Source: an uncultured bacterium (lineage in GTDB: Bacteria; Actinomycetota; Actinomycetes; S36-B12; CAIYMF01). Taken from it: DNA of 59,899 nucleotides. A program made the translations under genes and the position numbers. The notes under the pieces are model-generated. The model did not search any database. It was given only the letters and a program-made list of their open reading frames with translations, and had not been told where the DNA came from. Shown piece after piece: positions 600-4,613 of this stretch. The stretch's first letter is position 1. The number at the start of each line of letters is the position of its first letter. The stretch covers positions 1-59,899 of the forward strand of contig CAIKEU010000019.1 of NCBI GenBank assembly GCA_903826575.1, given 5' to 3'.

Positions 600-2267
600 C
601 TACATCCGTTCTGGTGCACTCACTCCCAGAATCCCAAGACCGTTCGCAAGGGTCTGACGCGCGGCCGCGCACAGCCAGAGCCGCGAAATGTTGATCGGCT
701 CGAGCTCAGCATCTGCACCGGGTAGAACACGGCAAACGTCGTAGAACTTGTGATACGCCGTGGCAAGTTCCTCGAGGTAGCGCGCAATGCGGTGTGGCTC
801 ACGAAGTTCAGCTGCCGATGCGACGACGCGTGGGAATTCAGCAATCGCGCCGAGGAGTGCAGCCTCGCGGTCATGCGTCAGTAGAGATGGGTCGAAATCC
901 GATGAGCGCCAATCGATTCCGAGATCCGTCGCACCGCGAAGCACCGATGAAATTCGAGCATGCGCGTACTGCACATAGTAGACGGGATTGTCGTTCGTAC
1001 GCGAAACAAGTAGATCGAGATCGAGAGTGAGCGGACTATCGACGGGGTACCGAATCAGCGAGTAGCGCGCCGCGTCTACGCCCACCTCGTCAACGAGGTC
1101 TTCAAGGGTAATCATGTTGCCGGCACGCTTCGAGAGCCGAACCTCTTCACCATCTTTGAACATCTTCACGAGCTGTCCGATCAAGACCTCGATGTTGACG
1201 TCAGGATTGTCACCAGCACAGGCCGACACCGCACGAAGACGATTAACGTAGCCGTGGTGATCGGCGCCGAGCAGGTAGATGCAGACGTCGAAACCGCGAG
1301 CGCGCTTGTCGACGTAGTAAGCAGTGTCAGAGGCGAAGTAGGTGAGCTCACCGTCTGCCTTGATGAGCACTCGGTCTTTATCGTCGTCGAATTCACTCGT
1401 GCGCAGCCATGTTGCGCCATCTAGCTCGAAAACGTGACCCTCGGCGCGCAGCTTCTCGAAGCCACGATCAACAGCACCCGACGAGTGCAAGGTTCGCTCG
1501 GAGTACCAGACATCGAAGTGGGTGTTGAAGTTGTCGAGTACGTCCTTCTGCTGCTGAAGCTGAAGCGCGTAGCCGGCTTCGCGGAATGCCTCGTAGCGAT
1601 CTGGCTCAGGCAGGCTGACGATGTTGGGGTCGGCAGCGACAACCTGCTTGGCGAGATCGTCGATGTAAGCGCCCTGATATCCACCCTCCGGCACGTCCGT
1701 GCCAAGAGCACGAGCCTCGATCGACTGACCGAACTTATCCATCTGGACGCCACGGTCGTTGATGTAGAACTCGCGGGCCGTCGTGGCGCCGGCAGCCTCT
1801 AGGACGCGAGCGAGTGCGTCACCAACCGCAGCCCAGCGGGTATGACCAAGATGTAGCGGGCCGGTTGGGTTGGCTGAAATGAATTCGACGTTGAAATGCT
1901 GACCGGCGTAACGATCGATGTGACCGTACGTCTCCCCCGCGACCACAACATTGCGAGCCGTTTCGCCTAGGGAAGCTGCGTCAAGGGTGATGTTAAGGAA
2001 GCCGGGGCCAGCGATGTCAACCTTGGCGACGCCGTCCACCTGACGGAGTTCGCCGGCGACAAGTTCGGCAACGGCGCGGGGATTACTGCCGGCTGGCTTG
2101 GCTAGAACGAGCGCGATGTTCGTCGCGTAATCACCGTGATCGAGATTCTTCGGGCGTTCGACCACAACCTCATCAGGGACTTGACCCGGCTCTAGATTGA
2201 GGTCGCCACGTTCTACGCACGTGACGACAGCGTGACGAATAGCGGCAGACAGTAGTTCGGGGGTCAT
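600..2267 (-). CDS. argS: arginyl-tRNA synthetase
   Basis: 555 residues, normal length for class I ArgRS. The N-terminal Add-1 domain covers roughly residues 1-100. The HIGH-type signature is HLGH at 139-142, preceded by ANPTGP. The KMSKS-type loop appears as RLSKRAGN. The C-terminal anticodon-binding DALR domain ends in the common PERM-type tail. The enzyme charges tRNA-Arg in the cytosol. It starts at an ATG at 2267, only about 48 bases from the divergently oriented tRNA-Arg(CCG) gene at 2315, so a synthetase and one of its substrates are back to back. It is probably the first gene of an argS-lysA operon. No anomaly seen. Confidence 0.97.
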   Translation of the reverse strand: MTPELLSAAIRHAVVTCVERGDLNLEPGQVPDEVVVERPKNLDHGDYATNIALVLAKPAGSNPRAVAELVAGELRQVDGVAKVDIAGPGFLNITLDAASLGETARNVVVAGETYGHIDRYAGQHFNVEFISANPTGPLHLGHTRWAAVGDALARVLEAAGATTAREFYINDRGVQMDKFGQSIEARALGTDVPEGGYQGAYIDDLAKQVVAADPNIVSLPEPDRYEAFREAGYALQLQQQKDVLDNFNTHFDVWYSERTLHSSGAVDRGFEKLRAEGHVFELDGATWLRTSEFDDDKDRVLIKADGELTYFASDTAYYVDKRARGFDVCIYLLGADHHGYVNRLRAVSACAGDNPDVNIEVLIGQLVKMFKDGEEVRLSKRAGNMITLEDLVDEVGVDAARYSLIRYPVDSPLTLDLDLLVSRTNDNPVYYVQYAHARISSVLRGATDLGIDWRSSDFDPSLLTHDREAALLGAIAEFPRVVASAAELREPHRIARYLEELATAYHKFYDVCRVLPGADAELEPINISRLWLCAAARQTLANGLGILGVSAPERM

Positions 2268-2314
2268 GGATTGAGCCTACCGACATGGGCGCTGATAGGG
2301 TCATTGCACTCCTG

Positions 2315-2386
2315 GCCCCCGTAGCTCAGGGGATAGAGCGGTGCCCTCCGGAGGCATGCGCGCAGGTTCGAATCCTGCCGGGGGCA
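2315..2386 (+). tRNA. tRNA-Arg, anticodon CCG
   Basis: A full cloverleaf can be drawn. The acceptor strand GCCCCCG pairs with CGGGGGC, discriminator A. The D-arm is GCTC/GAGC. The anticodon stem GTGCC/GGCAT encloses loop CTCCGGA, with anticodon CCG reading CGG. The variable region is four bases, and the T-arm GCAGG-TTCGAAT-CCTGC is intact. CCA is not encoded. The gene is followed at once by a 44-base perfect hairpin and three repeat units carrying copies of its 3' tail, so it is probably the anchor of the island described separately. Confidence 0.97.
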
Positions 2387-2430
2387 CGCCCTTTCCTAAC
2401 CTCGCACGAGTGCGGGGTTAGGAAAGGGCG
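2387..2430 (+). terminator. long perfect hairpin 1 after tRNA-Arg (terminator-like)
   Basis: A 20-bp stem with loop CGAG and one G-T pair begins on the base after the tRNA discriminator. It could stop or process the tRNA transcript, although the run of T after it is weak (TTCT). It is also the first member of the three-unit repeat array, so a terminator role is only one reading. Confidence 0.6.
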
Positions 2431-2498
2431 TTCTCATGACACAGTCAGGATTCGGGAGGAGAATCGCGAAAGCGATTCGACGGGTCCTGCCGGGGGCA

Positions 2499-2544
2499 CT
2501 TCCTATTTTTGATCCCACATGAGTGTGGGATCAAAAATAGGAAG
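2499..2544 (+). repeat. long perfect hairpin 2 of the array
   Basis: A 21-bp perfect stem with loop TGAG directly follows the second copy of the tRNA tail. Both arms differ from hairpins 1 and 3 over most of their length, yet pairing is complete, so the pairing rather than the sequence appears to be conserved. Confidence 0.85.
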
Positions 2545-2614
2545 TACTTATGACGCTGTCAGGATTCGAGGAGGCGGCCGTCAACAGACGGCCGACGGAC
2601 TCCTGCCGGGGGCA

Positions 2615-2658
2615 CGCCATTTCCTAACCTCGCATGAGTGCGGGGTTAGGAAATGGCG
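2615..2658 (+). repeat. long perfect hairpin 3 of the array
   Basis: A 20-bp stem with loop TGAG directly follows the third copy of the tRNA tail. It differs from hairpin 1 by a compensated pair: CCCTTT/AAAGGG in hairpin 1 is CCATTT/AAATGG here. TTTTCATGAC follows. Confidence 0.85.
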
Positions 2659-2721
2659 TTTTCATGACGCAGTCAGGTCCGGAGAATCGCGAAAGCGATT
2701 CGACGGGTCCTGCCGGGGGCA

Positions 2722-3183
2722 CTCAACTTCTTCAATGGTAACAAGGGATTTCAGCGATTTTCCGGATCTCGTGCCACATTTCGTGCCACTTGGGGCTTTC
2801 AGAGGCTTCCACTGGTGTGATTCGCCTCTTGCCCTGCCGGGCACTCCGCTTCGTGGAGCCAGAGGAGTCATCGCCGCGATCTTGATCGTTTGGCCGTGGC
2901 ACTGGGAGGGGAATGGAGGTTCGCGAACGTGACGCCATCGCCGATCTCTGCCCCCCTCGCGATGAACAGCCATGCGACGCCCAGCCGTGCCAGCATCACT
3001 CACCTGGTCGTCACTGTAACGGTCAGCATCGTTCTGGCACCAGACAACCTTCGGAACGATCGCACGTCAGAGAACGGCACAATCTGGGAAACCATTGCCC
3101 CGCATGGGCTCTCGTCTGGCGGAGCGACGGTCTTGCAATGCACATGTCTGCTGACCGTCTGAGACGCGTTCGCGGCCGATTGC
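2722..3183. other. gene-poor stretch with CGTGCCAC direct repeats
   Basis: No convincing gene: the open frames on both strands lack recognisable domains and overlap one another. CGTGCCAC occurs twice as a direct repeat at 2770-2777 and 2782-2789, shortly downstream of the last tRNA-tail copy. Short direct repeats beside a tRNA 3'-end copy are what arm-type sites of a tyrosine recombinase would look like. That reading is inference, supported only by the integrase remnant near 5 kb. Confidence 0.4.
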
Positions 3184-3713: not shown

Positions 3714-4613
3714 TCAGTAGACACAGACGTTGTCTGTCGTGTGACAAGTAGCGTCCGGCGTCTTCGCGCCATCCGCCGTGTACGACCCGAACGGATTGAG
3801 AAAGACCCACAAAGTGATGGCCACGGTGAGCACCGTTCCGTGGAGGGACCCTGTACTTGAGACGTAGTAGGTCCCCGAGCCCGACACATCGCCGGTGTTC
3901 GCGCTTCCGACAACGCCGCCGCGGTTGATCGCCCACAACTGGTAGTGCTTATTGCCGAAGTTTCCGGCGTTCGGCGAGTACAAGCACAGAGGGGAACCGA
4001 TCTTGCTCGTGACAGCGCCCGGATTGACAGTGACCGTGCAGGAGAATCGGTCCGTATCCGCTTGGCAGCCTTGTAGGTTGCAGAAGTGCGCTGCAACGAT
4101 CAACCCGATCTTGGTCCACGATGTCCGACCACTCCCGACGACGCCCCGTACCGCAAAAGAGTTGGGATCTCCGCCATCCACCGCCGCTACTGCCACCGTG
4201 TCGCTGGCAATGAGGGACGTTCCGGCCGACTCCACTGGGGTGGCGCTTCCGGGCGGCTGCGTGACAGCTGTGTGCGAGACAGATGCAAACTGTGTGCTGA
4301 TCCGACTTGACAGCGCCGACAGCTGATCGAGCTGCCTTTGCGCAGTGAGCGGCGAGGTCAGGCCTCGCAAGTCCAGTGAGTCACCAGACGCGATCGAAGA
4401 CTTCCACCCCTCGATGAGTGCCATAGCGTCCGTGCGGTACTGAGGGTCCTTGGCGGACATATTCGCGATCGCCTCAGCATCACTCTCATTGCCTGTCGTA
4501 ACGACCAGGATCTCTAGCTGCGAGCCGCCCATTGCCGGTTTAGCCCAGAGCAGCGGCGCCCAAATCGATGAAGCGGCAACTGCTACCGCGATCAGGACAA
4601 TTCGGCGCTTCAT
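3714..4613 (-). CDS. secreted hypothetical protein
   Basis: 299 residues from ATG at 4613. The N-terminus MKRRIVLIAVAVAASSIWA followed by LLWAKPAMG is a classical Sec signal peptide with cleavage near AKA/AKP. The open frame extends upstream to 4874, but that part has no family features and the signal peptide marks the start; GGGGAG is very close to the ATG, so an ATG at 4634 is a possible alternative. The mature part has a helical section with a Ser/Thr/Pro-rich patch, then a cysteine-containing half (CNLQGC, FSCTV, CLYS, TCHTTDNVCVY) that may form disulfides. It ends in -NVCVY. The family is not recognised. Probably exported; role unknown. Confidence 0.65.
   Translation of the reverse strand: MKRRIVLIAVAVAASSIWAPLLWAKPAMGGSQLEILVVTTGNESDAEAIANMSAKDPQYRTDAMALIEGWKSSIASGDSLDLRGLTSPLTAQRQLDQLSALSSRISTQFASVSHTAVTQPPGSATPVESAGTSLIASDTVAVAAVDGGDPNSFAVRGVVGSGRTSWTKIGLIVAAHFCNLQGCQADTDRFSCTVTVNPGAVTSKIGSPLCLYSPNAGNFGNKHYQLWAINRGGVVGSANTGDVSGSGTYYVSSTGSLHGTVLTVAITLWVFLNPFGSYTADGAKTPDATCHTTDNVCVY

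Follow-up and report, generated by a model that had tools for sequence, protein, structure and literature searches.

What are the repeated hairpin units that follow the tRNA-Arg(CCG) gene on contig CAIKEU010000019.1 of an uncultured actinobacterium (GenBank assembly GCA_903826575.1), and how did they come to stand there? The window, i.e. the whole stretch of 59,899 nucleotides that was analysed, carries three of them in tandem. An initial annotation, made from the letters alone, had described alternating copies of the tRNA 3′ tail and long paired hairpins, and had considered structured RNAs, serial integration scars and cassette-like recombination sites. Our tentative preference is to read the units as miniature, gene-less integrative elements, which would be inserted between T-loop bases 59 and 60 (59^60) of tRNA and transfer-messenger RNA (tmRNA) genes and would be addressed to them by a base-pairing guide.

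All units follow one plan: a terminator-like long hairpin, a linker, a short hairpin built as guide-GGAG-GA-variable stem-GA-CGGN, and a copy of tRNA bases 60-74. In the window the T60 positions are 2373, 2485, 2601 and 2708, which gives spacings of 112, 116 and 107 bases. The features are listed below; bit scores refer to R1, the covariance model made for the short hairpin from seven cores in the window's own genome. G and L numbers are our handles for genomes and loci.

2315-2387, plus strand: tRNA-Arg(CCG) gene (ARAGORN; Rfam RF00005); T loop 54-60 at 2367-2373, tail T60-C74 at 2373-2387 (numbering by eye)
2388-2429, plus strand: unit 1, long hairpin, terminator-like, first base directly after the tRNA
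2430-2445, plus strand: unit 1, linker (from sequence and repeat analysis, D2)
2446-2454, plus strand: unit 1, guide, reverse complement of tRNA bases 56-64
2455-2484, plus strand: unit 1, core with GGAG bulge, GA, variable stem (2461-2478), GA, CGG and N (2484)
2446-2489, plus strand: unit 1, model match, 63.7 bits (unit belonged to the seed of the model)
2485-2499, plus strand: tail copy 1, T60-C74 (from sequence and repeat analysis)
2500-2543, plus strand: unit 2, long hairpin with another arm sequence (inverted repeat I2)
2544-2559, plus strand: unit 2, linker (from sequence)
2560-2600, plus strand: unit 2, guide (2560-2568) and core, variable stem GGCCGTC/GACGGCC
2560-2604, plus strand: unit 2, model match, 43.6 bits (unit belonged to the seed of the model)
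2601-2615, plus strand: tail copy 2, T60-C74 (from sequence)
2616-2657, plus strand: unit 3, long hairpin, near that of unit 1 (80-nt repeat D1, 93%)
2658-2673, plus strand: unit 3, linker (from sequence)
2674-2707, plus strand: unit 3, shortened short hairpin without the GGAG bulge and part of the guide
2674-2712, plus strand: unit 3, model match, 30.8 bits (same core in the sister species, L090)
2708-2722, plus strand: tail copy 3, which under the insertion model would be the native tRNA tail pushed away by the units (empty site L256)
2723-2789, plus strand: flank common to the empty site of G009, holding GTGCCAC direct repeats (from sequence, repeat D4 and locus comparison)

The three units thus appear in the order claimed for them. 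The linkers are 16 bases long, and the long hairpins of 20-odd bp each begin on the base after a tRNA tail. They had been called perfect, which is true of unit 2 (arms of 22 nt, 100% complementary), whereas units 1 and 3 are near-perfect (22 and 21 nt, both 95%). The repeated tail is present but has 15 bases (T60-C74) and not 14; the start noted for it, 2373, is exactly T60. The short stems of 7, 8 and 7 bp (counted by eye) agree with the 7-8 bp given, and unit 2 has indeed exchanged the arms of both hairpins and still pairs. Folding of 2315-2750, tRNA included, is far better than that of dinucleotide shuffles (z = -13.7, 0 of 100 as good). Four points go beyond the initial annotation: that one arm is antisense to the T loop, that units also stand at other tRNAs and at tmRNA, that the long hairpin looks like a terminator, and that the short hairpin of unit 3 is a shortened copy lacking the GGAG bulge.

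The linker and tail had been likened to the 3′ half of the tRNA. The 5′ arm of the short hairpin is not merely a T-stem copy: its GGGAN′TYG is the reverse complement of C56-R57-A58-N59-T60-C-C-C, and the window guides at 2446-2454 and 2560-2568 are the reverse complement of bases 56-64 of tRNA-Arg. To judge this beyond the window, units were collected with R1 and with a strict letter pattern. The pattern fixes the GGATTY of the guide, GGGAGGAG and CGACGG, so that conservation there, and at guide bases 58/59, is uninformative; the tests of the guide therefore rest on model-found units, although the model too favours the core letters. One count used 139 of 167 distinct rows. For the guide, after 30 rows without a tRNA and 11 duplicates were dropped, 136 of 177 rows could be used, 70 of them model-found units with a readable T loop. 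In these 70 the guide forms Watson-Crick pairs with tRNA positions 56 to 64 in 70, 66, 67, 67, 64, 67, 70, 60 and 48 cases, against 68, 37, 2, 7, 59, 65, 70, 56 and 45 with its own 3′ arm. Bases 57 and 59 are both matched in 66 of the 70 (10,000 shuffles of the arms: mean 19.0, maximum 32). The four exceptions are L079, which has the tail of another tRNA species, L113, whose alignment seems to be off by one base, and the two shortened cores of L090 and window unit 3. Over all 136 units from both sources the guide tracks T-loop variants between genomes in Ala(cgc), His, Pro(cgg), Ser(tga) and Ser(gga), save for L079.

A mismatch is also kept inside the hairpin. The N beside the tail (base 59) forms a Watson-Crick pair with its own-arm partner N′ in only 5 of the 77 parsed units (of 87 model-found), while shuffling N gives a mean of 17.7 pairs and never as few as 5 in 10,000 trials; because the units share kinship, none of these shuffle figures is an exact probability. 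The predicted duplex of guide and tRNA is stronger than that of guide and own arm in 103 of 104 cases. From the T-loop match together with the kept mismatch at 59 it follows that the arm is made to prefer the tRNA over its own partner. We regard the existence and spread of the units, their T-loop guide and the kept mismatch as solid.

The initial annotation had asked for a look at other tRNA genes of the same genome and at relatives. Searching the genome with the array gave matches on two other contigs, which are like units behind tRNA-Pro(CGG) and tRNA-His. In total a tail copy (at most 2 mismatches in 12, within the next 400 bases) stands behind 9 of 44 distinct tRNA/tmRNA genes: Ala(cgc), Pro(cgg), His, Arg(ccg), Ser(tga), Ser(gct), Ser(cga), Ser(gga) and tmRNA; some flanks end at contig ends, and one Gly gene has no readable T loop. 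All but Ser(cga) and Ser(gga), i.e. 7 of the 9, also have a guide nearby (at most 1 mismatch in 9), and in the Ser(gga) flank R1 gives no match at E up to 5. Among relatives R1 matches 36 of 60 genomes, the window's own included, in 16 of 29 genera (E ≤ 0.01); among genomes drawn across the phylum it matches only 9 of 396, again including its own (E ≤ 0.001, stricter filters). The strict pattern finds at least 116 stretches in a collection of species genomes, and among the matches listed these are Actinomycetota by name except for four labelled 'uncultured bacterium'. A tRNA or tmRNA lies within 600 bases upstream on the same strand in 108 of the 126 pattern matches in these stretches, and of the remaining 18 most have, on inspection by eye, an upstream tRNA tail with hairpin, the tRNA itself being cut off or unread. 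Similarly, 147 of the 177 collected model matches have a tRNA or tmRNA upstream, 116 of these at 45-70 bases, and units also occur behind a gene predicted as tRNA-Sec (L275). A looser pattern, GAGGN{12,40}CGACGG, was dropped, with 588 matches against 256 for the reversed control. An assembly artefact is unlikely, since the same build is found in NZ_CP049935.1, a record titled as a complete chromosome, in the one-contig genome G273 and in many separate assemblies; nor are the arms randomly mutated in relatives, where they stay paired.

No named element with this build had been known to the initial annotation, and none was found in the searches made here. In Rfam at E up to 5 the tRNA alone exceeds its gathering score in window positions 2200-3000; the hairpins draw microRNA-type models below cut-off, the best being mir-204 (E 0.0039, 23.3 of 48.4 bits). 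In 20 further loci Rfam finds tRNA, tmRNA and one ALIL pseudoknot away from the unit, and no unit at cut-off. No paper was recognised as describing such units in the literature searches, most subscription papers being outside their reach, and the passages on tRNA in PMC2864571, PMC11109978 and PMC8632094 describe none.

Two side observations belong to this survey. Another type of core, GGGCCCCCGCTAG...CTAGTAG, lacks GGAG and also has an arm complementary to the tail of the tRNA; it occurs at about +150 to +215 in the flank of L018 (tail copy 2 of tRNA-Ala(cgc)) and at about +45 to +105 in that of L009 (tRNA-Val(tac)). On the minus strand of L215 (about 4430-4600) a tRNA-Pro-like T arm is joined directly, with an N between them, to a unit hairpin; the repeat has probably been collapsed in assembly.

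Within the core, GGAGGA is found in 80 and GACGG in 83 of the 87 model-found units, letters that the model itself favours; the GGAG-GA/GA part may resemble a kink-turn. The terminal stem is variable, with 127 distinct sequences among 152 parsed units (of 164, both sources). Its changes are compensated, as had been proposed: in 81 distinct pattern-found units all 7 stem pairs vary on both sides and 96.4% of cells pair, the stem being free in the search pattern and the alignment fitted to the model. Over 24 unit pairs (of 25, picked for similar long hairpins and not proven orthologs) the numbers of differing sites are 119/464 in the stem, 14/215 in the guide, 4/144 in GGAGGA, 4/120 in GACGG, 143/1392 in long hairpin plus linker and 665/1152 in the distal flank; the comparison overstates conservation of the core, for loci found by its letters, and of the long hairpin, through the choice of pairs. 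In some pairs, such as L125 and L152, the long hairpin is kept and the stem mostly changed (9/58 against 23/31). Unit 2 of tRNA-Arg (2560-2600) and the tRNA-His unit (L026, 1635-1678) have the 7-bp stem GGCCGTC/GACGGCC in common with different loops, which hints at exchange between tRNAs.

The junction and the empty site suggest how the units came to lie there. Identity between the tRNA tail and the last distal tail starts at T60; runs of 15 bases are the most common (30 of 120 last units), and in 15 units the run reaches the 40-base limit. From T60 to T60 the median length of 126 first units is 112 bases (5-95% range 94-136, extremes 60 and 151). In the window the last tail is followed by TCAACTTCTTCAATGG...GTGCCAC. 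In the congener G009 the tRNA-Arg gene runs directly into this flank with no unit, a clean empty site. The GTGCCAC direct repeats 3′ of the last tail (2766-2789), which the empty site has too, we take to resemble the integrase arm sites of a lost element. The sister species G004 has one unit before the same flank as the window, with the long hairpin of unit 1 and the core of unit 3. One related unit and a different flank are found in G007, and two units each in G008, G012 and G015; a related flank without any unit is seen in G006 and G002. In total, no unit lies within 300 bases 3′ of tRNA-Arg in G001, G002, G003, G005, G006 and G010. On a tree of the neighbouring argS region (14 genomes) presence changes four times, at least two changes being forced by well-supported branches. 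Similarly, Ser(cga) has two tail copies in the window's genome and one unit with a similar flank in G004.

As an insertion mechanism this could work as follows. A unit lying between bases 59 and 60 would bring its own T60-C74 tail to complete the tRNA and a terminator to end the tRNA transcript. The 5′ arm of its right-end hairpin would serve as the guide and, because it is complementary to bases 56-64, would span the insertion point. With its own right end (CGGN^TCCC) the guide pairs with wobbles and the kept mismatch at 59, with an intact tRNA gene (CRAN^TCCC) perfectly. The hairpin, as single-stranded or extruded DNA, would be cut after N, the guide would then pair with the exposed T-loop strand of the tRNA gene, strand exchange at 59^60 would insert the element, and repeated insertion would build arrays. 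The units would move, their substrate may be single-stranded DNA, and a tyrosine recombinase may act in trans. The wider proposal is that they form a new class of gene-less mobile elements, in which the guide recognises tRNA genes as single-stranded DNA or as an RNA-DNA hybrid and drives insertion at 59^60, the kept mismatch makes insertion downhill, and host or passing tyrosine recombinases do the chemistry with the guide as a programmable part; in this full form we consider it doubtful.

Several results weigh against insertion of mobile units. The tail identity stops short of base 13 in 40 of 120 last units although guide and core, which are needed for detection, are present; the hairpin may have a value of its own. 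Deletion between the 15-bp tails can leave a clean empty site as well, and because such a loss looks like absence before insertion, gain can only be inferred. On the argS-region tree the presence label is no more clustered than its shuffles (147 of 500 as low). As each unit has to fit its tRNA beforehand, a move from one tRNA to an unlike one would require the guide to be made anew, and no recent transfer of this kind was caught. The variable stem has 17 G-T against 8 A-C, leaning to RNA if anything; G-U makes up 2.3% of its predicted pairs versus 5.7% in long hairpins, and tRNA acceptor stems have 5 G-T of 175. The strict pattern matches 0 contigs of a viral collection. Units as phage parts were discarded on this ground and because phage matches in BLAST cover the tRNA alone (query bases 1-81, in the 20 of 415 records listed).

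The enzyme searches point the same way. Among 60 genomes, the window's own included, a Y1 HUH transposase (PF01797) is found in 3, in 0 of 11 of the window's genus and not in its own genome. Reverse transcriptase (PF00078, RVT_1) is found in 7, in none of 17 of family f1 and not in the window's genome, and the IS110 Transposase_20 (PF02371) in 19, in neither the window's genome nor G004. Integron integrase (TIGR02249) exceeds its cut-off in 0 of 60. Weaker TIGR02249 matches occur in 60/60 genomes and in 14/14 controls, the best with 252.5 bits (G050) against a cut-off of 265; these are probably Xer-like tyrosine recombinases, which are present everywhere and neither prove nor exclude such an enzyme. 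The reverse-transcriptase and IS110 routes were rejected because both enzymes are absent from the window's genome, and a canonical integron because no integrase exceeds the cut-off.

The strongest rival, which could coexist with mobility, is a cis-acting RNA switch kept by the host; we see it as a real but lesser possibility. On read-through the guide would pair with the upstream T loop and the distal tail would displace the proximal one in the acceptor stem. The transcript would fold as a tRNA with a huge T-loop insert, non-functional and discarded, which would tie tRNA output to correct termination. In predicted minimum-energy folds of 104 tRNA-to-unit transcripts the guide is paired with the tRNA in 59. 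The acceptor 5′ strand takes up the distal tail in 74 of them and the proximal one in 21; as the folds favour the distal tail, a read-through transcript would tend to swap its 3′ end. The stronger guide-tRNA duplex and the covarying stem speak for the switch as well, as do units in 8 of 11 searched genomes of the small-genome family f7 (1.2-2.0 Mb). The long hairpin, at offset 0 after the tRNA in 88 of 111 cases, looks like an ordinary RNA terminator with predicted termination; with 52 G-T against 9 A-C in 94 hairpins, it appears to be under selection as RNA. However, because this terminator precedes the rest of the unit, little of the unit should be transcribed, which disfavours the switch. 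Tail copies behind only 9 of 44 genes and patchy presence at one tRNA within the genus do not suit it either, and a host switch needs no exact 15-base tail, no arrays and no 59^60 junction.

A landing site or decoy, which would draw integrases and insertion sequences away from the tRNA, is unlikely. In its favour, a second copy of the tRNA-His unit core with the same variable stem and tail lies elsewhere in the window's genome (G000:C17:3809, L083). The sequence to its right is found in G004 on the contig of tRNA-His, about 8 kb away, so that an element appears to have used the unit hairpin as a site. Insertion-sequence-like ends lie in the tails of L085, L086, L139 and L156, a 120-aa open frame (L155:1665-2027) stands between two identical Ser(gga) units (L155:1541-2242), and about 5.7 kb separate two Ser(tga)-type units (L168:111-5918). 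However, the right end in G004 shows no unit core, and neither the L155 frame (Pfam) nor an integrase-like frame in L271 (Pfam, PHROGs) has a match. The one frame scanned within the 5.7 kb of L168 has no Pfam match. The longest open frames up to 1.9 kb 3′ of the last units, scanned for 30 of the 65 listed, include no tyrosine recombinase and one frame with transposase domains (L053). The unit lacks the intact T loop that a real attachment site has, and for a decoy neither guide nor mismatch is needed. As a general model it was rejected, the scanned downstream frames being mostly ordinary or unmatched.

Some insertions near the units were recorded in passing. The insertion-sequence-like elements in tRNA tails, between tRNA and unit hairpin, look IS481-like by eye only and lie at L085:1-145, L086 (minus strand, about 1310-1330), L139:1190-1260 and L156 (before 156). 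Partner ends are found in the tRNA flanks of L014, L016 and L036. In the tRNA-Thr(tgt) case the repeated stretch is about 15 bp (CCCTCGTCGGCCCGG). The integrase-like frame without a Pfam or PHROGs match lies behind the tRNA-His unit, is cut by the contig end and has by eye the look of an integrase N-terminus.

Even less probable is a neutral by-product, in which the tRNA tail and terminator are duplicated in tandem and the arms are matched by template switching in replication instead of selection. Identical tandem units (L059, L070) would fit, as would variable stems that are Watson-Crick at 526/605 outer-pair cells and swapped wholesale between some units with similar long hairpins. But under template switching the guide would be expected to fit the partner closest to it, the own 3′ arm, and it matches the farther tRNA; conserved GGAGGA and GACGG, the avoided pair at 59 and the spread over many genera and tRNA species would also stay unexplained. 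That the units are transposed as single strands by a Y1 HUH enzyme of the IS200/IS605 or RAYT/REP type residing in the genome is hardly credible, and this reading was rejected: the right-end geometry of guide, hairpin and cleavage site matches that of IS608, but the absence of the enzyme from 57 of 60 genomes refutes it as a resident and leaves only a transient source.

Returning to insertion of gene-less elements, we compared the units with known systems. According to PMC4383910, tRNA-gene islands restore their target gene and leave the displaced fragment at the far end, the T loop being one of three crossover subsites. The Islander tRNA/tmRNA islands described there resemble the units in splitting a gene and restoring its 3′ part, in using tRNA and tmRNA targets and in forming tandem arrays; the units differ in being about 110 bp long, without gene or integrase, and in having a conserved hairpin and a T-loop-antisense guide. 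The regenerated gene and the displaced 3′ fragment are seen here in the T60-C74 copies and the empty site of G009. The unit has no integrase gene inside, and with 107-116 bases from T60 to T60 in the window, and a median of 112 over 126 first units, there is no room for a gene.

Integron cassettes form arrays behind a fixed site, and their attC hairpins have an unpaired spacer, a variable terminal stem and a junction beside the hairpin foot. The units share all of these, and the idea of integration scars or cassette-like sites is borne out to this extent by the architecture and by the clean empty site. Unlike cassettes, they carry no gene, stand behind a tRNA gene as their fixed site and have one arm that is complementary to the target; no integron integrase exceeds its cut-off in the 60 genomes. 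Neither GTTRRRY nor RYYYAAC, the R box patterns, is found in the three window short hairpins plus tails. In IS200/IS605 and REP/RAYT systems the cleavage site pairs with a guide that lies 5′ of a subterminal hairpin, the hairpin foot is GGAG-like, and non-autonomous repeats are moved in trans. The units have the same guide position and foot but carry a 15-base tail, their target is longer and tRNA-specific, and the Y1 transposase is rare. As with the internal guide of group I introns, a single guide can pair on either side of the junction, with CRAN 5′ of it and with the 3′ flank TCCC, and so align the two; the units are far too small for an intron core (compared by Rfam scans only), and the upstream tRNA is already complete. 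The defining enzymes of IS200/IS605-RAYT, of retroelements (group II intron, retron) and of IS110/IS1111 bridge RNA systems are all absent from the window's genome. The units lack at least one tested defining feature of each known family considered; their mechanism could still place them as an extreme miniature of tRNA-gene islands.

The units are a sequence family across actinobacteria that is attached to essential genes and of which no description was found in the searches made. Mobile units would be integrative elements of very small size, with a site chosen through base pairing and no known guided enzyme. Units that act as RNA switches would represent a new way of controlling tRNA output. 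Either way, the coevolution of guide and T loop offers a clean handle for experiments.
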